Origin: Candidatus Syntrophosphaera sp. | GTDB taxonomy: Bacteria; Cloacimonadota; Cloacimonadia; Cloacimonadales; Cloacimonadaceae | Assembly (NCBI GenBank): GCA_019429425.1 | Contig: JAHYIU010000004.1 | Span: 1-59,869, forward strand | Length of the DNA: 59,869 nt | Direction: 5' to 3' | Part shown: positions 19,710 through 41,897 of the stretch, piece by piece | Numbering within the stretch: position 1 is the stretch's first letter | How the letters are laid out: the number at the start of each line of letters is the position of its first letter | Notes under the pieces: generated by a model | Databases searched by the model: none | Told to the model about the DNA's origin: nothing | The model's input: only the letters and a program-made list of their open reading frames with translations | Program-made: the position numbers and the translations under genes

Positions 19710-22700
19710 ATGAAGATCAGGTTTCTCCTCATCATCCTGCTGCTGGCCCTGACGGGTTACGCCCAAGCCTACAATTTCGGCCAAAACAAGGTCAACGCCA
19801 GGCCCAGCGAATGGTCCATGCTCCAGACCATGCATTTCGACATCCATTTCCCCCGGGGCGAGGACGAGTTTGGCAAGCTGGCGGCCCTGATGGCGGAGGA
19901 GACGTACTACGCCCTGCGCGACGACCTGACCTTTCCGGCCCAGTCACGGATCCCGATCATATTCTACGGCAACAAGACCGAATTTCAGAATACAAACATC
20001 ATCTATCCGCTCCTCTCGGAAGGGGTCGGCGGCTTCACTGAAAGCCTGCGCAACCGGGTCGTGATCCCCTTTGACGGCAGCTATGCCAATCTGGAAAAAC
20101 TGCTGGTCCACGAATTGACCCACGCCTATATCAACGCCCTGGACAAAAATCCCTCCGGGTCTTTGTACACATTGCGCCCTGTTTCCTTTCCCTTCTGGTT
20201 TTCCGAGGGCCTGCCGGAATTCCTTTCCCTGGGCGGCGAGGACGACTACAATAACATGTTCATCCTGGACATGGTGGTCAACGACAAGCTACCCAAGCTG
20301 GAAAACCTTGGAGGATACTACGCCTATCGCCTCGGAGAAAGCTTCCTGACCTACATCGCCAACACCTACGGGCGCGAAAAGGTCTCCGAATACTTCTTTG
20401 CCCTGCGGTCGCTGAAGATACTGGACAACGCAACCAAAAAGGTCTTTGGCATGGAATTTGAGGATCTGGAATCTCGCTGGCGCTACCAACTGAAACGGGA
20501 CTACTTTCCCCTCATCAACAGCCACGCGATCCCCGGCGAGAACATGGAACAGAGGACCGACAGCGAAAAGGACGGCTCCTACTTCAACTTCGTGCCGCGC
20601 TTTTCCCCCAATGGCGACCGCTACGTCTATTACAGCAGCGCGGGCGCCCGCTACAGCATCTGGATGGCCGGATTCCACGGACTTTCCCAGCCAAAACGCA
20701 TACTCATGGGCGAAGCGACCGGACGGGTCGAGGAATTCTACTATTTCCGCTCCAATCTGAGCTGGTTTCCCGATAACCGCAGAATCGCCTTTGCCGCCAA
20801 AACTGCCAACGGCGACCGCATCCACATCCTCGACGTTGATCGGGAGAAGATCGTGCAAACGCTCGATCTAAAGGATTTTGACGCCATCTATGAGCTCGAT
20901 GTCGCTCCGGATGGCAAGAGCATCGTCTTCGCCGGACAAAAAAGCATGCAGTGCGATCTCTATCTCTACGGCCTGGAGAGTGGGGTTCTGACGCAACTCA
21001 CGGATGACCTTTACAACGAGGCCCAGCCGCGTTTCGCTCCAGACGGCACAAGCATCGTCTTCTCCTCGGAACGCAGCCAGAACCGGGATAGCGAGCGCAA
21101 GGGGTTTTTCGCCCACCTCCATAGCGACATCTTCAGCCTGGAACTGGCCAGCGGCCTCATGCGCCAGCACACTTTCGAACACCAGGATTGCGGCTTTCCA
21201 ATGCTCGACAGCGCCGGCAACCTGCTCTACTACATCACATCCGAGGAAGGCGTGAGCAATCTTTACGCCCTGGACCAAAGCGGCGGCGGCAAGACAAAGG
21301 TCACCAATTTCCTCTCCGGGGTCTATTCCGCGGACCTTTCTCCCGACGGCAGGAACTTCCTCCTCTCGAACTACTTTGACCAGGCCTGGAACATCTATTT
21401 CACCCCCGGGCCCAGGGACAGCCTGATTTTCGCCGAGTATCCCGAAGCCATTGTCCATGAGTCTGAGGGCGATCTGATGGACAACGTGGACCTGAGCCAA
21501 CTGCATTATTTCGGCAAGCGGGAAAGACAAATCCCACGCCGGATCAATCCCGCCACTCAATACGACCTGCGGCGTCCGCTATTTGGGGACGCGCCCTCCT
21601 TTGAATTCACCCGGGAGGATTCTCTCCATTTGACCCGGGACTTCAGCTTTGACGAGCGTCCCACCACGATCGAGACCATCCCGACCGTCAAACCCTACAA
21701 GACCAAATTCGCTCTGGACAGCCTCTGGGGCGGCCTGGCCTATTCATCCTATGTGGGCACGATCGGCTATGTGGAACTGAGCCTGAGCGACATGATGGGC
21801 AACCACGGCATCGGCATCAACGCCGGAGTGGCCGGCAAACTGGAGGACTCCAACCTCCTGCTCACCTATTTGTATTTGAAGCAGAGGATGGACTATGGCG
21901 TGGGCTTGTTCAACCTCAACCAGGAATTCTACTTCCGCCGTTACCAACCGGGGCTCGATGACTACTATCGCTATCGGGAAAGGCAGACTGGGCTTTACTT
22001 ACTGACCCGCTATCCCTTCAGCCGCTTTCTCCGCCTGGAGCTGGACCATATGCTCTATCAGCGGGGCCAGTACCTGTCAGAATGGAATTGGGCAACCCCA
22101 AGCATCGGCAGTTGGGGTCCGGAAAAAAAGGAACAGGACATAGTCTACACGCCCGGCCTAACCCTGGTGCATGACAATTCCCTGTATGGCTCAACCGGGC
22201 CGCTGCTGGGCTGGCGCGCCCTCTACAACCTGAGCACCACCCTGGCCGACGGAAATGTCGAGTATGTGACCAATTACCTGGATTGGCGCAGCTACACCCT
22301 GTTCAGCAAGCGCTATGCCGTCGCGCTGCGCACCATCGCGGGCATCAGCCTGGGTGACGATCCCCAGCGCTTCAACCTTTATGGATACAACGGGGTGCGG
22401 GCCTATGAGGGCGACCTGAGCGGCGAAAAGAAAGCCGTGGCCAGCGCTGAACTGCGTTTTCCCTTCTTTGAATACATCAGCATGGCCTTCCCCGTGCCTT
22501 TGACAATTCCCAACATCAGGGGCAGCCTGTTTACCGACATTGGGACGGTGTTTGACGATTTTGACCGCTTCCGGGGCGTCCGCAACGGCAAACTGGAAGA
22601 CCTTTACATGAGCTATGGCTTCGGTCCCAGGCTGAATCTGGGCTACGTGATCCTGCGCTTCGACATTGCCTGGCTCACCGACCTGGCCTCCAGCTCCAAA

Positions 22701-22736
22701 CCCACCTATTACCTCAGCTTGAGCGAAGATTTTTAG
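19710..22736 (+). CDS. Peptidase-MA-like / PD40 propeller / outer-membrane barrel fusion protein
   Basis: The 1008-residue protein has a signal peptide (cleavage near YAQA). A zinc protease-like domain follows, with HELTH at residues 134-138 and Glu166 in FSEGLPEF. Six PD40/TolB-like propeller blades (about 290-560; motifs such as FSPNGDRYVYYS and APDGKSIVF) come next, then a BamA/surface-antigen-like barrel from about residue 680 to the end. This single chain would place a metalloprotease and a propeller in the periplasm on an outer-membrane barrel. It sits ten bases after the MCE gene, so a joint envelope role is plausible. It is a remote architectural relative of the protein at 10677-13349. 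Catalytic activity is inferred from motifs only. Confidence 0.8.
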   Translation: MKIRFLLIILLLALTGYAQAYNFGQNKVNARPSEWSMLQTMHFDIHFPRGEDEFGKLAALMAEETYYALRDDLTFPAQSRIPIIFYGNKTEFQNTNIIYPLLSEGVGGFTESLRNRVVIPFDGSYANLEKLLVHELTHAYINALDKNPSGSLYTLRPVSFPFWFSEGLPEFLSLGGEDDYNNMFILDMVVNDKLPKLENLGGYYAYRLGESFLTYIANTYGREKVSEYFFALRSLKILDNATKKVFGMEFEDLESRWRYQLKRDYFPLINSHAIPGENMEQRTDSEKDGSYFNFVPRFSPNGDRYVYYSSAGARYSIWMAGFHGLSQPKRILMGEATGRVEEFYYFRSNLSWFPDNRRIAFAAKTANGDRIHILDVDREKIVQTLDLKDFDAIYELDVAPDGKSIVFAGQKSMQCDLYLYGLESGVLTQLTDDLYNEAQPRFAPDGTSIVFSSERSQNRDSERKGFFAHLHSDIFSLELASGLMRQHTFEHQDCGFPMLDSAGNLLYYITSEEGVSNLYALDQSGGGKTKVTNFLSGVYSADLSPDGRNFLLSNYFDQAWNIYFTPGPRDSLIFAEYPEAIVHESEGDLMDNVDLSQLHYFGKRERQIPRRINPATQYDLRRPLFGDAPSFEFTREDSLHLTRDFSFDERPTTIETIPTVKPYKTKFALDSLWGGLAYSSYVGTIGYVELSLSDMMGNHGIGINAGVAGKLEDSNLLLTYLYLKQRMDYGVGLFNLNQEFYFRRYQPGLDDYYRYRERQTGLYLLTRYPFSRFLRLELDHMLYQRGQYLSEWNWATPSIGSWGPEKKEQDIVYTPGLTLVHDNSLYGSTGPLLGWRALYNLSTTLADGNVEYVTNYLDWRSYTLFSKRYAVALRTIAGISLGDDPQRFNLYGYNGVRAYEGDLSGEKKAVASAELRFPFFEYISMAFPVPLTIPNIRGSLFTDIGTVFDDFDRFRGVRNGKLEDLYMSYGFGPRLNLGYVILRFDIAWLTDLASSSKPTYYLSLSEDF

Positions 22737-29686: not shown

Positions 29687-32245
29687 TCATTTGACTATCG
29701 CCATCCGGCGATAAAACGTCTCTGCGCCAGCTTTGAGCCGGCACAGATAGATCCCGGCCCCGGCTTCACGGCCGGACCGGTTGCGCCCGTCCCATTCCAA
29801 GCTGTGGCTTCCCGCGGGCAGGTTGGAATCGATCAGTTCTGCCACTTTCTGCCCCCGGAGGTTATAGATGCTGATCCGGACAGGCTGTGCCGATCGAAGC
29901 TCAAAGCTGAGAGTGGTTTTAGCGCTGAATGGATTGGGGTATTGCTTCAAACCGCTGATGGCGGCCGGAACTGTGTCCTCTGGATTGGAAACATAGGGTG
30001 ATTGGAGTTGGACCTCGATAACCGCGGCTCCCACGACGCCGCGGCCCAGCGCGTCGGTCCAGGGCCGGTCCGGTTCCGTAAGCCAGCTGTGGCCGCATAC
30101 ACCGTTGGTATCGAAATGGATGATCTGATACTCAAAGAGGTCCAGGATCACAGCGATCTGCCCGTTCAGGACCACATCGCTGTCCACGTCGAGCTCGAAC
30201 CATTGCCCCAGGTCGCACATCACGTCGCCGATATCCAGCAAGGTCTGGCTGGTTATGGCCCCTTCGGCGAAGCGGTTCACCTTGATATTCACCAGGCCCG
30301 GCACTGCCGGAAAGCCCCAGGGATCGGCGGAAAGCATGAAAGCCACTTTTTTGAGATTGAAATCCTCAGCGCCGAGGTTGAAATCCACCGCCGCCTTGAT
30401 CGGAACGGCGCCCCGGCCAAATTCGGAGTGCACCGGAGCGTCGCTCAACCAGTTGAACCAAGTTGGCTGCTGGGGATCGACCATCCGGACCCGGGCTTGC
30501 CGGACTGAGCTCAAGCCGGAGCCCGTGGTGGCGCGGACCTTGATCTCGTGATGGCCGGGAGTGAGGAAGCCATCCGGAATGTCCAACACATACGGGCTTG
30601 AGTAGAGCAGGCCCAGGATCATCCCGTCCAGGCTGAACTCCACGGACACGATAACATCCCCGGGAGCCGTGATCTCCGCGCTGATCTGATGTTCGCCGGG
30701 AGTGAGGATCTCCCCGTCCGCGGGGCTCAGGTTGCCGATCTGCGGAGGCAGCGGACCTGAACTTTGGCCCAGGATGAAAGAGATGGTCCCGCCGGCCTCT
30801 GAAATGCTGTGGATGTTCACGGGAATGGGATTTCCGGAGCCAAGGAAGCAGTTGGGGTCGCTGAACTGGTTGAATTCCGTGCGGCTGCTGTCCAGGCTGA
30901 AAGCGGCTTGCGCGATCAGGCCGTTGTTCGCTGGCCCGCCTTGGGGACGGAAGACGTATACCTCGTCCGGAGGGCCCTGCGCGTTTCCGTTTTGGGCTTC
31001 ATTGATCCGGTGGATGAGGAGTCCGGAGCCGGGCAGGCCTGCCTCAAAAATGTCGGAATCCTGCTTGCGGTATTCCAGGACCAGGTATTCAGTCCCGGAA
31101 AGCGGTACGCGATAGGCGTTGTTGGTGGCCGAGGTAACCGGACTGAGGGTATGGAAGCCTTCTGAGATGGTGGGTATGGGGCTTATCCAGCCGCCGTAGC
31201 GCGCTTTCATGTGCATGCCCATATGCCCGTTGCCGCTTTCCATGATGTCCCAGCAGCCGGCCGGGGTGAGCCCGTCAAAATTGTAGTGGTAGAGGTCCGG
31301 CGCGCCCACGGAATGGAACATCTCGTGGCAGAGGGTGCGCACGCTGTTCTGGTTTTCCGGCTGGAAGGTGAAATCCCAGACCATCTTGCCGTTGATGTAC
31401 ACATCCTGGGCGTAAAGCGCCCAGCGATGCGCCCAGAGCAGTTCGGCCCAGGCGGTATGGGGCCCGCGGATGATGAAGCAGACGTTGTCCACGAAGCCGT
31501 CGTTGTCCGCGTCGATGTTCAAGCTGGCCGGGACCTGCGAGGATATTGCATTGAGGGCGTTGGCCAGCAGGATGTGTTCTCTGTCCGTGCGCTGGTAATC
31601 CCGATAGCCCTGGGGATTGGTGACGGCGTTGTAGGGCATGTAATATGCCCGCGGATGGCTGTCCGTATAGGAAAGATTGACCTCTGGGGCGCAGACCGGA
31701 TAGTGGTGGGAAACGTAATCCAGCTGGTCGTAGCTCACCTGGTGGAAATAGTTGCGCAGTGAATATTCGTCCGCGCCCACGGAGTTGAATTTGGCGTCGT
31801 ATTCCCCGCGGGAAACCTCAAACTCCGTCTGGTCGCTGAATTTGATATAGACCACGAGGTTGTTGACCGTTCCCAGGTTTGGCCCGCGCGAGCCGCTCCG
31901 GGCATGGGAAGTCATGAAATCCACCTTCGCCTGGTATGCCGCCGGGGAAATGTTGATCCCGGGAACCAGGCCCAGAGCGCGGGGATCATGTGCATCGACC
32001 CGCCAGGCCGAGGGAACCGGTTCTCCGCCAGCCAAAACGGCATAATAGTAGTATCCGTCCGCGGAGCTTTGCATGATGGAAAAACCCTCCGCGTCGTGCA
32101 GCCGGTTGGCAAATTCGTCTCCCGAAGCCAGCAACGCCAGGACGGATCCGTCGGGCTGCTCCACCGCGGTGGGCAGATTTATGAAATTGGCCGCGCAGAG
32201 GAACAACGGCGGCAGGAATAAAAGCGTCATCCAAAATTGTTTCAT
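29687..32245 (-). CDS. M6-type secreted metalloprotease with FlgD-like C-terminal sorting module
   Basis: The 852-residue protein has a signal peptide (residues 1-18) and a propeptide region, then an M6 (immune inhibitor A-like) domain. Its zinc motif HEMFHSVGAPD spans residues 307-317 (His307, Glu308, His311, Asp317). An Ig-like domain with bacterial Ig features (about 505-600) and a linker follow. The end is a FlgD-like module (QYPNPF, the segment RISIYNLRGQKVAELID, and WDGRN followed by SGREAGAGIYLCRL), commonly tied to type IX-like or similar secretion in FCB bacteria. It is likely a secreted or surface protein-degrading enzyme. It is the first gene of the minus-strand operon with the two unknown genes after it. 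Confidence 0.88.
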   Translation of the reverse strand: MKQFWMTLLFLPPLFLCAANFINLPTAVEQPDGSVLALLASGDEFANRLHDAEGFSIMQSSADGYYYYAVLAGGEPVPSAWRVDAHDPRALGLVPGINISPAAYQAKVDFMTSHARSGSRGPNLGTVNNLVVYIKFSDQTEFEVSRGEYDAKFNSVGADEYSLRNYFHQVSYDQLDYVSHHYPVCAPEVNLSYTDSHPRAYYMPYNAVTNPQGYRDYQRTDREHILLANALNAISSQVPASLNIDADNDGFVDNVCFIIRGPHTAWAELLWAHRWALYAQDVYINGKMVWDFTFQPENQNSVRTLCHEMFHSVGAPDLYHYNFDGLTPAGCWDIMESGNGHMGMHMKARYGGWISPIPTISEGFHTLSPVTSATNNAYRVPLSGTEYLVLEYRKQDSDIFEAGLPGSGLLIHRINEAQNGNAQGPPDEVYVFRPQGGPANNGLIAQAAFSLDSSRTEFNQFSDPNCFLGSGNPIPVNIHSISEAGGTISFILGQSSGPLPPQIGNLSPADGEILTPGEHQISAEITAPGDVIVSVEFSLDGMILGLLYSSPYVLDIPDGFLTPGHHEIKVRATTGSGLSSVRQARVRMVDPQQPTWFNWLSDAPVHSEFGRGAVPIKAAVDFNLGAEDFNLKKVAFMLSADPWGFPAVPGLVNIKVNRFAEGAITSQTLLDIGDVMCDLGQWFELDVDSDVVLNGQIAVILDLFEYQIIHFDTNGVCGHSWLTEPDRPWTDALGRGVVGAAVIEVQLQSPYVSNPEDTVPAAISGLKQYPNPFSAKTTLSFELRSAQPVRISIYNLRGQKVAELIDSNLPAGSHSLEWDGRNRSGREAGAGIYLCRLKAGAETFYRRMAIVK

Positions 32246-33418: not shown

Positions 33419-36400
33419 ATGAAGCTATACATACGGCTCTTAAGCTTGATGCTGTTGCTTGGTTTGCTTGCCTTTGGCTGTAGCGGACCGACCGATCAGG
33501 AACAGGACAAGCTTAACAACACAGTCGTGGAAAGCCTCAGGATCGAAGACATTCCCAATGACGGGGGTGACGGTCTGATCGTAAGCTGGAAACCCCTGCC
33601 CAGAGCCCAGCGCATCCAGGAATACCGCATCTACCGCGGCGTCAACCCGGACACGCTGTTCTTTTTGGCCTCGGTGCAGGTGAACGTCAAGACCGGCGTG
33701 GCGTCGGACATGATGTACTATTACGACAGCGGTTACAACACCCTCATCGACATCGATTCCCCGGGCAAGCTCAAGAATGAAAAGGGACAAAAGGGCAGCA
33801 TCCTCTATCGGGCTGTCCCGCGCGATACGGAGCTGGCGGCCAGGCTGGGCGAGAAATTCAGCCTTTATGCCTCCATCCCGGACAAGTATTACTACTACCG
33901 CTCCGAAAAGGCCCGCTCGGCCGATCCGGAAGACGAGACCGTCTACGCGGGCTTGAGATTCAACCAGCAGACCCTGCTGGCCTCATTGAAAAGCGCCGCC
34001 CCGGGCGAAGAGCCCATCCATTATTACTATACCGTGGTGCCGGTAAACGAGCGCAACCAGTATCTGGGCATCGCGGAACCCGCGAGCGGCTATCCCATCG
34101 ATGACAGTCCGGAAAGATCGCCCGGCCTATACAGCGCTGCGATCGAGGACACGCGCAACCTGAACTTTGAATGGGACTATCCCCTGAACTTTTCTGATAT
34201 CGCGGCTTACAGCATCTACATGCTGCCGGCAATATCGGATACCCTCTGGAACAACATGAGCGATCCGGAGCGGGAGACAATTCTGGCCAACCGGGGCATC
34301 ATGCTCACGCAAGGCCCCGTCGGCGGAGGAGCTTTGAAGAATTACAGCGTGGTCAGCGAAGCCGACCTGCAGGGCCATCCTGCCGGGCTGAGCTGGGACG
34401 CGGCTGTCAATTCCCGATATGCCATCCGCTTCCAGGATTATGGATCTCCCGCGCCCTCGCCTTTGAGCATTCTGAGCACTCCGGTCCGCAAAACCAGCGC
34501 CGATCTGCCCAAGAAGGAAGATTTCTGGGTGGAAGACAAGGCCATGGACAAGGGCGATCGCATCACAGTGACCTGGGAAGAGCCGATCGTGACCCTGACC
34601 AAAACGACCACTCAGACCAAAAAGGGCACGACCCTGCAGATCAACTACCAGGTGAACAAAACCGATGCCCAAAGGATCGGAAACATCTATTTCGAGTTCT
34701 TTGAGCCCGGACAATCTGAACCTTTTGCCAAGGTCAACGAATTTTACCAGGACAACATCATCAAGGTCAAGATCCCGGAGCAGTATTCATTGCGCGACCG
34801 GGAGACCCTGCCCACGGATAGCTTGATGGTGAAGATCACGATAGCCACCAAGCCTTATACCCTGCATCCCAGAACCGGCCGCCTAAGTTGGGGCAAGTCC
34901 AGGCTGGTGGAGAATTATGAGCTGATCCAGTATCTGAAGCCGGATGCCGGAATGATGGCCTACATGCCCACCCGGGAACTTTTGCTCAATGGGGTTGACG
35001 TTTCCCCGATCCTGAACGCGATCTATCGCAAAAGCTACCGCGGCAGCTCTTTCACTTTGGTCAAAAAGAACACCTCCTACGAAAACAACCTGGATGTGAC
35101 GATCCCCTACATCTCCAGCGTGGGGCAAGTGGTGGCCGGATTCAACTTCGTGAAGGACGGGATGCTCCATTCCTACGTGAACGGCGAGCGCCACTCCCGC
35201 AAGCTGGAACCTGGAGAGAAGATCGGAAACCTGGCCCTGGTATCCTCAGACATCGATTTCACCTATGACAAGGAAAACAAGACCCTGCTCAGCACCAGCA
35301 TCTTCATCGACGAAGCGAAAAAGAAGCTGGACAAGATGAATGAAGACCTGGCCAAAGGCAAGGAGGAGCTGGAAGCAAAGCTGGGCGCCCTAAGCCTGGC
35401 CGCTCCTGGCACGGAAGCCGGTCTGCAGGCCGAGATCGAGGCCCTGCGCGGGGACATCGAAGCCCAGGAGAAAAAGCTCCAGATCCATGCCGACAACGAG
35501 CATTTCGCCCATTCCCTGGAATTCAATTCCAACCGGAACAGAATGCGCTTTGTGACATCCATCCGCGAACCCGAAATCCGCCAGCACACCTACATGGTGG
35601 TGAAAACAAACGGCCGCGGCCTGTTCACGGAATCCGATCCGGACATCCAGGCAGACGGCTCCTACAATTATTACGCGCCGATCTCCAACTGGTTCGACTG
35701 GAACAAGCTGCTCACCCTCTTTGCCGTGCTCATCTTCGGCGGCGCCGTGGTGGTATTCGTAAACCTGGCCAAACGGGGCAAGAACCTGTACATGCGCCCC
35801 ATAGCCGGTTTGCAGGAGATCGACAACGCCATCGGCCGCGCCACGGAAATGGGACGTCCGATGCTATACTGCATGGGCAACGGCGGGCTATCCGACGTGG
35901 CAACGCTGGCCTCCATGGGCATCCTGGGACTGGTGGCCCGCAAAGCGGCGGAATATGACACCAAGCTGATCGTTCCCTGCTACGACTACATCGTGATGCC
36001 CATCGCCCAGGAGATCGTGCGCGAGGCCCATTACGCGGTGGGACGTCCGGACAGCTTCGACAAGAACAACGTTTTCTACCTCACCTCGGTCCAATTCGCC
36101 TATGTGGCGGGTGTGAACGGTATCATGATCCGCGAAAGGATGGCCACCAACTTCTTCATGGGCTATTTCGCCGCCGAGGCATTGCTCATGACGGAGACCG
36201 GAAACGCCGTCGGCGCCGTTCAGATCGCCGGTTCGGACGCCATCACGCAGATCCCGTTCTTCATCACCACCTGCGACTATACCCTGATCGGAGAAGAGCT
36301 CTACGCCGCCTCCGCCTATCTGAACCGAGAACCGATGCTTTTGGGAACCCTGAAGGCACAGGATTACTTCAAGTTCCTGATCCTCGTCCTGGTAATTGTC

Positions 36401-36460
36401 GGGGCGATCTTGGCGACTTTCCAAGTCACCGGCTTAATGCAACTTTTCCCCTTAAAATAG
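33419..36460 (+). CDS. Giant FnIII-containing lipoprotein with C-terminal DUF6754 domain (copy A)
   Basis: The 1013-residue protein starts at ATG 33419, with AGGAG seven bases upstream. A lipobox-like signal ends at Cys21 (LAFGC). FnIII-like modules fill the first half (for example IVSWKPLPRAQRIQEYRIYRG). A coiled coil spans about residues 628-698. A membrane helix (about 763-783) is followed by a DUF6754-type domain with RPIAGLQEIDNAIGRATEMG (from Arg793), AEALLMTETGN (to Asn929) and PFFITTCDYTLIGEE (Cys952), then a last membrane helix (about 985-1005). So a large periplasmic part is tied to a conserved membrane-proximal domain. Function is unknown. It opens a five-gene operon whose last member is its paralog. 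Confidence 0.8.
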   Translation: MKLYIRLLSLMLLLGLLAFGCSGPTDQEQDKLNNTVVESLRIEDIPNDGGDGLIVSWKPLPRAQRIQEYRIYRGVNPDTLFFLASVQVNVKTGVASDMMYYYDSGYNTLIDIDSPGKLKNEKGQKGSILYRAVPRDTELAARLGEKFSLYASIPDKYYYYRSEKARSADPEDETVYAGLRFNQQTLLASLKSAAPGEEPIHYYYTVVPVNERNQYLGIAEPASGYPIDDSPERSPGLYSAAIEDTRNLNFEWDYPLNFSDIAAYSIYMLPAISDTLWNNMSDPERETILANRGIMLTQGPVGGGALKNYSVVSEADLQGHPAGLSWDAAVNSRYAIRFQDYGSPAPSPLSILSTPVRKTSADLPKKEDFWVEDKAMDKGDRITVTWEEPIVTLTKTTTQTKKGTTLQINYQVNKTDAQRIGNIYFEFFEPGQSEPFAKVNEFYQDNIIKVKIPEQYSLRDRETLPTDSLMVKITIATKPYTLHPRTGRLSWGKSRLVENYELIQYLKPDAGMMAYMPTRELLLNGVDVSPILNAIYRKSYRGSSFTLVKKNTSYENNLDVTIPYISSVGQVVAGFNFVKDGMLHSYVNGERHSRKLEPGEKIGNLALVSSDIDFTYDKENKTLLSTSIFIDEAKKKLDKMNEDLAKGKEELEAKLGALSLAAPGTEAGLQAEIEALRGDIEAQEKKLQIHADNEHFAHSLEFNSNRNRMRFVTSIREPEIRQHTYMVVKTNGRGLFTESDPDIQADGSYNYYAPISNWFDWNKLLTLFAVLIFGGAVVVFVNLAKRGKNLYMRPIAGLQEIDNAIGRATEMGRPMLYCMGNGGLSDVATLASMGILGLVARKAAEYDTKLIVPCYDYIVMPIAQEIVREAHYAVGRPDSFDKNNVFYLTSVQFAYVAGVNGIMIRERMATNFFMGYFAAEALLMTETGNAVGAVQIAGSDAITQIPFFITTCDYTLIGEELYAASAYLNREPMLLGTLKAQDYFKFLILVLVIVGAILATFQVTGLMQLFPLK

Positions 36461-36472
36461 AAGAGGTCTTAC

Positions 36473-37099
36473 ATGAAGAAGACAATACCTTTATTAATCG
36501 TGATCGTGGGCGGAGTTATCTGGCTCGGCTGGGTTTTCATTCCCCACAGATACCTGGCAGATGTGTTCTACTATGAATTCTTCGTTCCCTGGATACGTGC
36601 CATGGCGCCTTTCGGAATGCTGCTGGGCGTGATGAGCCTGTCCATGATGCACTATAGCAAGATCAAACGCAGAGCCCCCAAATGGCAATACAGTTTCTTC
36701 TTCTTTGCCGGGTTCATCGCCACCTCGCTGGCGGGATTCATCGGCGGGACGCAGAAAGGCGGGCTCTACATGTGGCTTTTTGAGAACATGCAGATGCCCA
36801 TGAGCGCCACGATGTTTTCCCTGCTCGCTTTCTACATGGCCTCGGCCGCATACAAAGCTTTCCGGGCCAGATCTCCTGAAGCTACGGTGCTGCTCGTCGC
36901 TGCCATTGTAGTTATGCTGGCCCAAGTGCCCCTGGGTGTGAAGATCAGCAGACATCTGCCCACCATTTCGCAGTGGATCCTGGACGTGCCCAACCTGGCT
37001 TCCAAACGCGGGATCATGCTGGGAGTGGGGCTCGGCAGCGTTGCCACCACCCTGAAGATCATGCTGGGAATTGAACGCTCCTACCTGGGAGGTGATTGA
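36473..37099 (+). CDS. Polytopic membrane protein of the DUF6754 operon (gene B)
   Basis: The 208-residue protein has about six predicted membrane helices (near residues 4-24, 43-60, 71-90, 108-128, 135-155 and 182-200), with few charged residues inside them. It lies 12 bases after gene A and one base before gene C. I do not recognise a family. The shape suggests a small channel-like or scaffold subunit; that is inference only. Conserved-looking features are a QKGGLYMW segment before helix 4 and a LASKRGIMLGVGLG segment before the last helix. Confidence 0.7.
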   Translation: MKKTIPLLIVIVGGVIWLGWVFIPHRYLADVFYYEFFVPWIRAMAPFGMLLGVMSLSMMHYSKIKRRAPKWQYSFFFFAGFIATSLAGFIGGTQKGGLYMWLFENMQMPMSATMFSLLAFYMASAAYKAFRARSPEATVLLVAAIVVMLAQVPLGVKISRHLPTISQWILDVPNLASKRGIMLGVGLGSVATTLKIMLGIERSYLGGD

Positions 37100-37100
37100 C

Positions 37101-38291
37101 ATGGCAGAGAGAATGAATTTCTTCGAACGCCTGCAAAGGCTTGACCGCAGATGGATCTACATCGTGGTCGCCCTGGCCATCATCATTCCGTTGCTGATAC
37201 CCTATAATTCGGATAACGTGACCTCCGCCTCCACGGAAAACGTTTATCAGATGATAGATTCCTTTGCCGGAAGGGAAGACAGGGCCATCCTGATGAGCTT
37301 CTATCACGACGCTTCGACAATGCCAGAGCTCTATCCGATGCAGATCGCCATCCTCCGGCACTGCTTCGAGCGCAACGTCAAGGTCTTCCTGCTGTCCTTC
37401 CTTCCCACCGGCGCGCCCATCATCGACATGGCCGTCAACTCCGTGAAAGAGGAATATCCAAACATCAAGTCCGGAACGGACTACTGCAATTTCGGCTATA
37501 TCCCCATCGCGCTGGCCATGCCCACGGTTATCGGCATGGGAGATAACATCTCCACCGCCGTGCCCACCGACGCAGAGGGCAGGAAAACAGAAAACCTGCC
37601 CATCATGAAAGGCATCAACAACTACAACGAGATGAACCTGGTGATCGAATTCTCCGGCTCCATCGCCGGCGGCTACTGGCTCACCTACGCGCGGCCCAAA
37701 TTCGGCACCAACATCGCCGTAGGCGTCACCGCCGTCATGGCAGCCGACCAATACCCCTATCTGCAGACCGGACAGTTCATCGGCATGCTGGCAGGGCTGA
37801 AAGGTGCCGCGGAATACGAGAAACTGGTGGAGGTCTTTGCAGCCTATCGCGCTCCGGGAGACAGACTCTTCACACAGAGTCTGAATGGCGAAAAGATCGT
37901 TCCCGGCAGGGCCTTCAGCAAGGACGTGCTGGTCAAGCCCGAGGTCCAGGACCTGATCAAGATCACCACCCAAACCAAGGCCAGCTTCAGCGAAGCTGAA
38001 TTCAAGGACTTTCTGGCCAAACACTCTCCCGAGGACCAGGCCAGAATGATCGCCGCCCAGACCAGGGAAAATGGCAAGATCGTCATCGATGTGAGCAAGC
38101 TCAATGCGGATGACTTTGAACGTGACGCCTGGGCCGATCTGAACCGCATGACCCGCAACACCCTCTATAAATTCAAGGTCGCCCGCATCGGCATGAACGC
38201 ACAGTCGGTGGCCCATATCATGATCATCGTGTTCATCATCATCGGTAACATCGGCTACTTCATCCAGAAAGCCAGAACGGCCAGGAAATAA
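37101..38291 (+). CDS. Bitopic membrane protein of the DUF6754 operon (gene C)
   Basis: The 396-residue protein has a membrane helix near each end (about residues 16-36 and 368-388) and a mixed alpha/beta domain of some 330 residues between them. GGGAGGTG precedes the ATG at 37101. The segment starting at Ala206 (AVGVTAVMAADQYPYLQTG) followed by LKGAAEYE resembles the spacing of the DUF6754 block AVQIAGSDAITQIPFFITT followed by YAASAYL in genes A and E. The family might therefore share a fold with them. An internal pair of conserved-looking segments is FLLSFLPTGAPIIDM and FGYIPIALAMP. Function is unknown. Confidence 0.7.
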   Translation: MAERMNFFERLQRLDRRWIYIVVALAIIIPLLIPYNSDNVTSASTENVYQMIDSFAGREDRAILMSFYHDASTMPELYPMQIAILRHCFERNVKVFLLSFLPTGAPIIDMAVNSVKEEYPNIKSGTDYCNFGYIPIALAMPTVIGMGDNISTAVPTDAEGRKTENLPIMKGINNYNEMNLVIEFSGSIAGGYWLTYARPKFGTNIAVGVTAVMAADQYPYLQTGQFIGMLAGLKGAAEYEKLVEVFAAYRAPGDRLFTQSLNGEKIVPGRAFSKDVLVKPEVQDLIKITTQTKASFSEAEFKDFLAKHSPEDQARMIAAQTRENGKIVIDVSKLNADDFERDAWADLNRMTRNTLYKFKVARIGMNAQSVAHIMIIVFIIIGNIGYFIQKARTARK

Positions 38292-38302
38292 GGGAGGAAA
38301 CA

Positions 38303-38920
38303 ATGTCATTCGAACTCTTCAGTAATCTCGTGGGTGCCTTCTTCACCCTCTGCATCTTCTCCTTCCTTTACAAGGACAATCCCTTCTATCAGATGTCTGA
38401 ACAGCTTCTGGTGGGTATTTCTTTGGGATATTCGCTGGTGCTGACCTACGAACGCGTGTTCATCCCCTATTTCTACCAGCCGATCTTCCTGCGCCATGAA
38501 TGGATCCTGATCATACCCAGCATCATCGGTATGTTCTACCTGCTGCGTTTCACACGCAAGCTGAGCTGGCTGTCGCGCTATCCCATCGCCTTTTCCATGA
38601 TGGCCGTGGGTGCCTCGGTCGCCCTCGCCATGCACAACATCATCCTGGTGCAGATGCGCCAGGCCATGGTGCCCATCGAAAACGTAAACCTGGCTCTGAT
38701 CTTCCTCGGAACGATCGCCGTGCTGCTCTATTTCTTCTTTTCCAAAGCGCACACTGGGCTTTACGGGAAATTTGTCGATGTGGGCAAATGGTACATGATG
38801 GTGGGCTTCGGAGCTTCCTTCGGACTCACCGTGATGGCGCGTATCTCTTTGCTGATCGGGAGGATCCAGTTCCTGGTCAACGACGTCTTCATCATGCTCA
38901 AACAAGCCATTTTCGGCTAA
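38303..38920 (+). CDS. Polytopic membrane protein of the DUF6754 operon (gene D)
   Basis: The 205-residue protein has six predicted membrane helices (near residues 8-24, 33-52, 66-82, 91-112, 125-146 and 160-185). GGGAGGAA stands just before the ATG, 11 bases after gene C. A hairpin separates it from gene E. No family is recognised. It has the same size and number of helices as gene B, yet I see no clear sequence similarity between them. Confidence 0.7.
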   Translation: MSFELFSNLVGAFFTLCIFSFLYKDNPFYQMSEQLLVGISLGYSLVLTYERVFIPYFYQPIFLRHEWILIIPSIIGMFYLLRFTRKLSWLSRYPIAFSMMAVGASVALAMHNIILVQMRQAMVPIENVNLALIFLGTIAVLLYFFFSKAHTGLYGKFVDVGKWYMMVGFGASFGLTVMARISLLIGRIQFLVNDVFIMLKQAIFG

Positions 38921-38942
38921 GCACACAGATATGGAATCAAGT

Positions 38943-38970
38943 GTGGGGAAACTTGCATGAGTTTCCCCAC
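38943..38970 (+). terminator. Stem-loop between genes D and E, terminator or attenuator
   Basis: An 11-bp perfect stem (GTGGGGAAACT with AGTTTCCCCAC) has a six-base loop TGCATG. A T-run follows only 14 bases later (38985-38988), so it is not a classic terminator. It may give partial termination or processing before the paralog lipoprotein gene. Confidence 0.55.
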
Positions 38971-39026
38971 AGTTCTTTGCGGGTTTTTAAAAAAAAATAT
39001 GAGTTCATGATCCTCAGGATTGACTG

Positions 39027-41897
39027 ATGAATAGATTCTACGCACTCACGGCGCTGCTGCTATTGGTTCTAATGCTCCTGGCCGGCTGCGCCCGCAGGGA
39101 TGTGGGGCAAAGCAGGATCGCTTCCTTCGCGGCCGCCGACATGCCTTTTGACGACGGGACCGGAGTGATGCTGACCTGGAAACCTCTGGACCGCTCCCAA
39201 CGCATTATCCAATACAACATTTATCGCGGACACAGGCCGGACAGCCTGTTTTTCCTGGCCAAAATAGAGATCGATCCCACGGTTGGGGTGGCCAGCGACT
39301 GGCTCAATTTCTACGACAAGGATTATCTCACGCTGATCGAGTTCGAAACAGCTCCAGGAAAGCTGAAACAGGAAAAGCACCAAACCGCCAGCGGCACACT
39401 TTTCAAAGCCGTGCCCCGCGATGCCAAGGTGCTGGGCCAGCTTCTGCCCCATTATGACGTGCTTGGGGACATCAACACCTCCAAGTATTTCAACAGCTCC
39501 AGCCGGGTGGAGATCCAGGGCGGGGAAGGTCCTGAAGTTTACGCGGGATACGAGCTCACCCGCTTCAACAATATCTATGCCAACCCCAAGGCCGGCCACA
39601 CCTATTATTACTGCGTGGTCCCCGTAACCGAGACCGGAGGTTTTCTTCCAGCCACCCAAGTGCTTCCAGCCACGCCAGTAAACAATCGTCCGGATTCCAC
39701 GGCTGTGCTTTACACCACCTACATCAGTGATACAAACGAATTCCGCTTCGAATGGACCCCGCCCCTGGAAAGCAGTGACATTTCAGGCTGGCAGGCCTGG
39801 CTGATGCCCAAAAGCATGCTACCTCAGTTCCGGGCCGATCAGAAAGCCAATGCCTCCGCCCCGGACAGCGTTTTCCACGCCAACTGGCAGAGCGGCTCCA
39901 TACTGCTCCACAGCATGTATCCACCCTACTGGTCCCAGGTCTTCTATGACAAGGTCGACCTCAACACAGCCGGGATCAAGATCCCAAGCCCGGAAGAACT
40001 GCAAAACTACATTCCCGTACTCACTTACGAGGATTATTGGGTTTCTGAGGACGGCTCCAGAGAAGAGGCATTACAGACCGCTTCCCTCGGCGAGCAGCTG
40101 AGTATCCATGCATCCGCCCAGCTTCCCCGCTTGCCGGATTACAGCGTTCTGGACAAGCCCAACGACAAGGGCGACAATATGTTGATCTCTTTCGGCCGCT
40201 CCTTCGCTTTCGTAACCATGGCCAGCTACACGAACAAGGCCAAAACCAGGATGCGCATCAACTATGAGATCTCCGGAAACGGCCATGAGGAGATCGACCG
40301 CCTCAGGTTCGAGTTCTTTGACCGCCAGGGGAACAGCCTGGGCAGGGTGAAGGAAAACTATCCGGACAAAATCATCCACTTCAAGCTGCCCCCCGGCACA
40401 AAGACAGGCGAGGATTTCTCAGTCCGCGTCTATGCCAGGAAGCTGGGAGAAAGGCAGATCAGCTCTGAGTACATCAGCCAGGACATCATCTACGACCCCA
40501 CGGCCTTTCGTTTCAATGGCGGCGACGTCAGCCTCGGAGGCCAGGTCCTCAACAGCTTCTATTACGATATCTTCAGCAAAAACAAGCTGAGCGCCAATTT
40601 CAGCCCCGGAATGCGCATCGGAGCGCTTTCCCGTCTCTATGACCATACCATCCCCTTCCCCGCGACCGAATATCCCGCCATCCTCAAATACGACCCCCAG
40701 ACCGGACTGCTCCTGACCGACCACCATTTCCAAGTGGCCCAGGACAACGAGAACTTCGTAAGCTTCTCGCCCTCTTTTTACAAACAGGATTTTGCCGCCT
40801 ATCTGGATGAACTGCGGGCCGGGATCGCAACCCTGGGCGCGGAAACCGCCACTGGCGACAGCCTTTCCGAAGCTGCCCAAAACCTGAAGGCCAAGCAGGC
40901 GGAACTGGATCTCATCCTTTCCAACCCCGCCTATCAGAAAGCCGCCCAAGCCAATGGAGACCGGGCCTGGCGCAGGGTCCTGAGGCAGGAATTGGACAAA
41001 AATTCCCGCTCCTATGCCTATCAACTGCTCGCGACCAACGGACGCGGCCTCTGGAGCGATGAATCCGACCTGCCTGGAGCCGACGCGGCCGCTTCCCAAG
41101 AGGAGGAATGGCATTATCCCCGTGGAGAGTGGTTCGACAAAACCAAGCTCGCCACCCTGATCGCCTCCATCCTGATGGGCCTGATGGTGGTCTACGCCCT
41201 CACCGTGGCCCGGCGCAAGGACCTGTATATCCGCCCCATCGCGGGTTTGGAGGAGCTCGACAACGCCGTTGGACGCGCCACGGAAATGGGACGTCCCGTG
41301 ATGTTTGTGCCTGGCTGGGGCACTTTGGGCGAGCCCTGCACCATTTCCGCGATGATGATCCTCAACCAGATCGCCAAAAAGACCGCGGCATATGACATCC
41401 GGCTGATCTCTCCCCACGTGGACTACTTCGTGGTGCCGCTGGCCCAGGAAATGGTCCAATCCGCCTACAACGAAATGGGACGCCCGGACGCCTATAACAA
41501 CAACGACATCTTCTTCGTTTCGGACACCCAGTTCGCCTTCTGCGCCGCGGTGAACGGCATCACGGTGCGCGACCGAGTGGCCACGATCTTCTACATGGGC
41601 TATTTCTACGCTGAAGCGCTGCTCATGACCGAAACCGGAAACCAGAGCGGAGCCATCCAGATCGCCGCCTCAGACGCCATCACCCAGATCCCCTTTTTCA
41701 TCACCACTTGCGACTACACCCTCATCGGGGAGGAGTTTTACGCCGCCTCGGCCTATCTTTCCCGCAACATCGAACTGGTGAGCATGCTCAAGGCGCAGGA
41801 CTATTTCAAGATCCTGATCGTGATCTCCGTGCTGGTGGGAACTGTGCTCTCCACCCTGGGCCTGAACACTCTGCTGAACTTCCTGCCTTTCGAATAG
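39027..41897 (+). CDS. Giant FnIII-containing lipoprotein with C-terminal DUF6754 domain (copy E)
   Basis: The 956-residue paralog of gene A has a canonical lipobox (LAGC, Cys21). FnIII-like modules begin with VMLTWKPLDRSQRIIQYNIYRG. A short coiled coil precedes a membrane helix (about residues 711-731). The DUF6754 domain carries RPIAGLEELDNAVGRATEMG (from Arg736), AEALLMTETGN (868-872 for TETGN) and PFFITTCDYTLIGEE (Cys895), and a final membrane helix follows. Similarity to A is strongest in the C-terminal 250 residues and much weaker in the N-terminal half. AGGAT stands seven bases before the ATG. Its product probably forms one complex with A to D. Confidence 0.8.
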   Translation: MNRFYALTALLLLVLMLLAGCARRDVGQSRIASFAAADMPFDDGTGVMLTWKPLDRSQRIIQYNIYRGHRPDSLFFLAKIEIDPTVGVASDWLNFYDKDYLTLIEFETAPGKLKQEKHQTASGTLFKAVPRDAKVLGQLLPHYDVLGDINTSKYFNSSSRVEIQGGEGPEVYAGYELTRFNNIYANPKAGHTYYYCVVPVTETGGFLPATQVLPATPVNNRPDSTAVLYTTYISDTNEFRFEWTPPLESSDISGWQAWLMPKSMLPQFRADQKANASAPDSVFHANWQSGSILLHSMYPPYWSQVFYDKVDLNTAGIKIPSPEELQNYIPVLTYEDYWVSEDGSREEALQTASLGEQLSIHASAQLPRLPDYSVLDKPNDKGDNMLISFGRSFAFVTMASYTNKAKTRMRINYEISGNGHEEIDRLRFEFFDRQGNSLGRVKENYPDKIIHFKLPPGTKTGEDFSVRVYARKLGERQISSEYISQDIIYDPTAFRFNGGDVSLGGQVLNSFYYDIFSKNKLSANFSPGMRIGALSRLYDHTIPFPATEYPAILKYDPQTGLLLTDHHFQVAQDNENFVSFSPSFYKQDFAAYLDELRAGIATLGAETATGDSLSEAAQNLKAKQAELDLILSNPAYQKAAQANGDRAWRRVLRQELDKNSRSYAYQLLATNGRGLWSDESDLPGADAAASQEEEWHYPRGEWFDKTKLATLIASILMGLMVVYALTVARRKDLYIRPIAGLEELDNAVGRATEMGRPVMFVPGWGTLGEPCTISAMMILNQIAKKTAAYDIRLISPHVDYFVVPLAQEMVQSAYNEMGRPDAYNNNDIFFVSDTQFAFCAAVNGITVRDRVATIFYMGYFYAEALLMTETGNQSGAIQIAASDAITQIPFFITTCDYTLIGEEFYAASAYLSRNIELVSMLKAQDYFKILIVISVLVGTVLSTLGLNTLLNFLPFE

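Follow-up and report, generated by a model that had tools for sequence, protein, structure and literature searches.

The conserved unit in this stretch of DNA is a four-gene membrane module, in which a DUF6754 gene is followed by the genes B, C and D, and not a set of five genes with giant lipoproteins as the initial annotation had it. The stretch as a whole (the window) comprises 59,869 nucleotides of a Candidatus Syntrophosphaera contig (JAHYIU010000004.1). The genes in question and their features are:

33419-36460, + strand: A, 1013 aa; signal peptide with lipobox (Cys21), probable FnIII-like arm, coiled coil, transmembrane (TM) helix, DUF6754 domain predicted to be cytoplasmic, TM helix
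35684..36448, + strand: DUF6754 domain of A plus its two flanking TM helices (PF20539, 390 bits)
36473-37099, + strand: B, 208 aa, six TM helices, N- and C-terminus predicted inside
37101-38291, + strand: C, 396 aa, TM helix, predicted periplasmic alpha/beta domain, TM helix
38303-38920, + strand: D, 205 aa, six to seven TM helices, N-terminus predicted outside
38942..38971, + strand: hairpin of 12-13 bp between D and E, a possible terminator or attenuator
39027-41897, + strand: E, 956 aa, with lipobox; second long DUF6754 protein, an additional copy restricted to the window's family
41121..41879, + strand: DUF6754 domain of E plus its two flanking TM helices (PF20539, 368 bits)

The coordinates of the open reading frames agree with the earlier description of five consecutive genes, with gaps of 12 (A-B), 1 (B-C), 11 (C-D) and 106 bases (D-E). 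All five are real genes, since homologues of each are found in the same order in many genomes. That A and E carry DUF6754 is also correct: residues 756-1010 of A match PF20539 at model positions 3-257 (390 bits, E = 5.5e-117), and residues 699-951 of E at positions 2-255 (368 bits, E = 2.6e-110). Two other genes in the window deserve mention. A metalloprotease of the M6 type with Big_7 and a FlgD_ig/Por_Secre_tail sorting domain is encoded 5' of the operon on the opposite strand (29687-32245, -). Further away, a 1008-aa protein (19710-22736, +) combines a peptidase MA domain with WD40-like PD40 repeats and an Omp85-type barrel, and an M17 aminopeptidase follows it.

The order of the four genes is almost invariant. 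B, C and D follow the DUF6754 gene on the same strand in 72 of 73 loci in Cloacimonadota and in 51 of 55 loci outside the phylum, counting loci with at least 2.6 kb of sequence 3' of the DUF6754 gene and leaving out, inside the phylum, the 22 terminal copies of the E type. On contig C6, the source genome (2.38 Mb in 134 contigs) holds another, third gene with DUF6754. Its product is short (381 aa, 403 bits) and, like A and E, scores above the 27-bit gathering threshold of PF20539 across the whole domain. Homologues of B, C and D follow this gene in the same order as in the window. Hence, the repeated unit is DUF6754-B-C-D without E. Complete quartets also occur in tandem, two or three per genome, at loci L115, L119, L122, L124, L127 and L130 outside the phylum. 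Copies of the E type lie 3' of D only at loci of the window's family type. Because a hairpin separates D from E in the window and hairpins of other sequence do so in some relatives, E looks like a separately controlled addition. The idea that all five genes form one complex thus survives for B, C and D as a unit with DUF6754, but the core consists of four genes. A lipoprotein-like gene without Pfam match lies directly 5' of the short DUF6754 gene (L004:8066-8917, -) and is kept in L141 and L142.

The distribution of the genes points in the same direction. DUF6754 is present in 122 of 125 Cloacimonadota genomes and in 69 of 262 genomes of other lineages; related genomes are not independent samples, but these outside carriers fall under 54 family labels. 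The initial annotation had named, as evidence against itself, the case that B, C and D occur mostly without DUF6754, and we found the opposite. Among the 262 outside genomes, 67 carry both DUF6754 and C, two carry DUF6754 only (G325 and G341), two carry C only (G217 and G355) and 191 carry neither. For B and D we used a subset of 80 genomes, made up of 39 genomes with DUF6754 (the source genome included), 40 that have neither DUF6754 nor C, and G217, which has only C. D was found in 40 of 40 genomes that hold C and B in 39 of 39 genomes that hold DUF6754; neither B nor D was found in any of the 40 that lack both DUF6754 and C. In G217, B is divergent and falls below the threshold of the B search, but is weakly visible elsewhere in the analysis. 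The outer-membrane marker Omp85 was rejected as a discriminator, as it is nearly equally present in tested genomes with (38 of 39, source genome included) and without DUF6754 (37 of 41).

The four subunits also vary together. In 12 genomes with at least two quartets, the pairwise distances of the six subunit pairs correlate at 0.56-0.75 within quartets; swapping partners inside genomes lowers this to means of 0.34-0.43. None of 500 shuffles reached the observed correlation for five of the six pairs, and two of 500 did for B-D. Since quartet subunits correlate above swapped partners, their covariation fits a dedicated complex, although duplication of whole operons alone could yield part of the correlation.

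Giant lipoproteins are not the defining trait of the system. Both A and E do have the lipobox that had been reported, at the end of their signal peptides (LAFGC and LLAGC, respectively). Among relatives, a simple pattern test finds it in 8 of 81 proteins of the A type and 6 of 31 of the E type, in none of the 9 short proteins of the phylum and in 2 of 57 from outside it. Nine outside DUF6754 proteins have fewer than 100 residues N-terminal of the domain, and minimal forms consist of little beyond TM-DUF6754-TM (L200 and L207). The lipobox is therefore rare and the fibronectin-like arm optional. The FnIII modules described for A and E are themselves only partly borne out: Pfam's fn3 is below threshold in E (E = 0.025), whereas the profile of the A/E N-terminus matches FnIII-containing chains (titin, E = 5e-4; PTPR-delta, E = 0.007-0.03). 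In two outside homologues fn3 is again below threshold, one of them at E = 1.8e-4. Together, the profile matches and this last homologue make an FnIII-like fold of the arm likely.

A place of DUF6754 in a periplasmic array is not supported; the domain is predicted to face the cytoplasm. This prediction is based on the positive-inside rule, applied to 228 sequences: K/R comes to 1.2 before the first helix of DUF6754 proteins and to 4.4 after it. About 10 charged residues of the domain, among them those of the GRATE and LIGEE motifs, are identical in at least 97% of sequences, which suggests a binding or active site. In the AlphaFold2 model of the DUF6754 domain of A, two helices flank an alpha/beta fold, and one stretch is uncertain (mean pLDDT 75.6). 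A fold search of the PDB with this model returned nothing at E <= 1e-3 and only generic Rossmann/Usp-like folds.

B, C and D are indeed outside the families of Pfam and NCBIfam, as had been noted. Their predicted helices differ in part from the first description. B has six helices (N-in) as stated, D has six to seven (N-out), and the positive-inside analysis gives the two proteins opposite topologies. C was called bitopic; both prediction and the AlphaFold2 model place one TM helix at each end, with a large domain in between that is predicted to face the periplasm. The model shows an alpha/beta domain between the two helices (mean pLDDT 84), and its search against PDB folds likewise gave nothing at E <= 1e-3 beyond generic Rossmann/Usp-like hits. 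PDB sequence searches with the profiles of DUF6754, C and c0 (a cytosolic protein described below) had no meaningful match. No homology was detected between C and DUF6754 (hhalign probability 4%) or between B and D (0.5%). Some genomes elaborate the subunits: C carries an N-terminal extension of several hundred residues with VPDWLR-type repeats at L195 (G184), and D has several hundred residues inserted between its helices at L198 (G175). A plasmid collection searched with C and c0 gave no match.

The membrane quartet is accompanied by a cytosolic set of three proteins. The first, c1 (600-660 aa), belongs to the MutL/GlmL-type family of ASKHA ATPases, with a full-length match to PF13941 of 429 bits (427 bits for the copy of the source genome). 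Of 33 full-length c1 sequences, 31 have the ASKHA motif P1, 32 have P2 and 31 have the adenosine motif. The second, c0 (377 aa), has weak barrel-sandwich matches (RnfC_N, E = 0.0014, under the cut-off), and the third, c2 (100-150 aa), is a small amphipathic helix protein. Outside the phylum the genes form a single operon, c2-c1-c0-DUF6754-B-C-D, at L117, L164, L165, L178, L179 and similar loci. In the source genome, c2, c1 and c0 lie together on contig C39, outside the window and apart from both quartets. On contig C59 the source genome also has a 973-aa reading frame that fuses c1 with a c0-like region (L162:6065-8983, +), about 3 kb from a methylmalonyl-CoA mutase gene on the opposite strand (PF01642, 440 bits). 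MutL-bearing reading frames of about the length of this fusion are found in G205, G272, G239 and G230. Near c2, a two-helix protein of about 160 aa (c3) recurs at L129, L132, L164, L166, L168, L178, L207, L209 and L210 and is a possible further component. Genes of the glycine cleavage and lipoate-ligase type recur near c2-c1-c0 at L164, L167, L169, L130 and L135.

The cytosolic set follows DUF6754 closely. The c0 profile is found in 64 of 69 outside genomes with DUF6754 and in 0 of the 193 other outside genomes; within Cloacimonadota it has matches in 120 of 125. For MutL, 35 of 38 DUF6754 genomes score above the cut-off, compared to 2 of 41 without DUF6754. A single c0 is present in 27 of the 32 outside genomes that have several DUF6754 genes, as would be expected if several membrane modules shared one soluble set. 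Since c0 is absent from the outside DUF6754 genomes G154, G182, G201, G341 and G379, and MutL, by Pfam, from G131, G182 and G201, the ATPase may be dispensable or replaced in some carriers. Conversely, three genomes of the phylum (G050, G061 and G096, two of them more than 90% complete) have c0 and no DUF6754. The two genomes with C only, G217 and G355, contain a divergent system with no recognizable DUF6754 (L196 and L203), which includes c2, a MutL-like protein of 492 aa that lacks ATPase motifs, a two-helix protein of 265 aa, B, C and D. The MutL-like protein appears to be degenerate. An S41/PDZ protease lies 3' of the set at both loci. In G184, C and D occur with a divergent c1 that has neither the P1 nor the P2 pattern, and Omp85 was not detected.

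What could such a system do? We propose, at a little under even chances, that A to D make up the membrane part of a conserved system of several proteins, an ATP-driven inner-membrane machine that links a cytosolic ATPase to periplasmic domains by a mechanism that we infer. The computed basis of this proposal is the fixed gene order, the co-occurrence, the fusion of c1 with c0, the predicted topology, the conservation of motifs and the presence of several quartets per c0. In such a machine, c1 would hydrolyze ATP and dock, via c0 and c2, on DUF6754 and on those loops of B and D that face the cytoplasm. The subunits of the quartet would touch one another, and a conformational change could run through the membrane core of B and D to the periplasmic domain of C and, where present, to the FnIII arm. 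The output would be mechanical or transport work on the periplasmic side, with a target in the envelope or at the inner membrane that is moved, loaded or remodeled. Several membrane modules would draw on a single ATPase set, as on a shared energizing module. In the source genome, the quartet in the window is long-armed (A, plus the extra copy E) and could reach far into the periplasm, while the quartet on contig C6 is short-armed. The broader claim is more tentative still: that this is an undescribed class of ATP-driven membrane machine, found in tens of bacterial lineages and in almost all Cloacimonadota, in which one ASKHA set (c1-c0-c2) energizes one to six DUF6754-B-C-D modules acting on the periplasm.

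The main rival explanation is that c1 and c0 are a reactivation chaperone. GlmL is thought to reactivate, or load the cofactor of, B12-dependent glutamate mutase. Its relatives are known as accessory proteins of enzymes and not as motors, which counts against a motor. By analogy, the quartet would be a membrane enzyme or carrier prone to inactivation, c1 and c0 would be its ATP-dependent reactivase or cofactor loader, and ATP would be spent on repair instead of work. The full-length membership of c1 in the MutL/GlmL family (429 bits for PF13941) speaks for this explanation, and so does the mutase gene near the c1-c0 fusion of the source genome. DUF6754 and C are alpha/beta domains whose invariant polar residues could be active sites, and a single c0 per genome would suit a shared chaperone. 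Yet no B12, flavin or FeS signature was found in A to D, and a mutase is not adjacent at most c1-c0 loci. Furthermore, c1 is longer than GlmL, and its scores are under the cut-offs of both GlmL models (230 bits against 475 for the equivalog NF040745; 182 bits against 204 for the subfamily TIGR01319). A literature search for GlmL together with ASKHA found nothing. We consider a reactivation chaperone unlikely, but it deserves to be taken seriously.

It is considerably less probable that the system is a passive scaffold of the envelope. The FnIII arm would then tether the outer to the inner membrane, anchored by lipid on one side and by TM helices on the other; the other proteins would lend it stability, and c1 and c0 would be regulatory. 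In favor of a tether, A and E have a lipobox, a coiled coil and TM helices as well as the FnIII-like arm. However, the lipobox is rare, and most genomes have a short arm or none, which weakens the case. In addition, the most conserved domain is the cytoplasmic DUF6754, and the association with an ATPase family is tight. Least probable is a motor that secretes proteins carrying sorting domains of the Por_Secre_tail/FlgD type at the C-terminus: these domains (TIGR04183) are found in 26 of 38 outside genomes with DUF6754 compared to 10 of 41 without, are numerous in these genomes and occur in the protease beside the operon (29687-32245), but 12 of the 38 have none, and G125, G149, G153 and G169 hold 28 to more than 60 of them without the system, so that cargo and DUF6754 dissociate in both directions.

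A core membrane system present in almost all Cloacimonadota genomes and in roughly one in four of the other sampled lineages would be a basic and so far unnoticed part of bacterial cell biology. Its ATPase half matches models named for the accessory protein of glutamate mutase, and both annotation and metabolic reconstruction are probably misled by this. The initial annotation stated that no function had been assigned to DUF6754, and our search of the literature for DUF6754 or PF20539 agrees: it found no mention and no function, with thin coverage of subscription journals and a description under another name being possible. With a defined set of genes, the function of DUF6754 becomes directly testable.

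How does the system compare to known ones? With GlmL/MutL, the accessory protein of adenosylcobalamin glutamate mutase (PF13941 and NF040745), c1 shares the whole ASKHA domain and the ATPase motifs. It differs in length, exceeding the GlmL-sized proteins of G155 and G174 by 100-200 aa, and in its partners, which are c0 and the membrane quartet; there is no mutase in the system. ECF transporters combine a shared energizing module with several membrane components (PMC7755397). Here, too, one soluble ATPase set goes with several membrane modules per genome, but this is an analogy only, with no sequence relation: c1 is an ASKHA-type and not an ABC-type ATPase, no match to an S- or T-component was found, and B and D have no Pfam match. 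Rnf and Nqr resemble the system in the weak RnfC_N barrel-sandwich match of c0 and in having two six-helix proteins of opposite predicted topology. They are unlike it in that the present system has no conserved cysteines and no flavin or FeS proteins, and B and D are not detectably homologous.

The layout can also be likened to Tol-Pal, TonB/Exb and the type IX motors, which are trans-envelope complexes of the inner membrane with a periplasmic arm. Here, however, B, C and D have no Pfam match and a soluble ATPase takes the place of the proton channel. From type IX secretion the system is further set apart by the sorting-domain cargo, which dissociates from DUF6754 (no cargo in 12 of 38 DUF6754 genomes, and cargo-rich genomes without DUF6754). 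Finally, within the DUF6754 family itself (PF20539), A, E and the short paralogue encoded on contig C6 match over the full length of the domain, with 368-404 bits. What Pfam lists as a domain without function is here placed in an ordered, ATPase-linked system.
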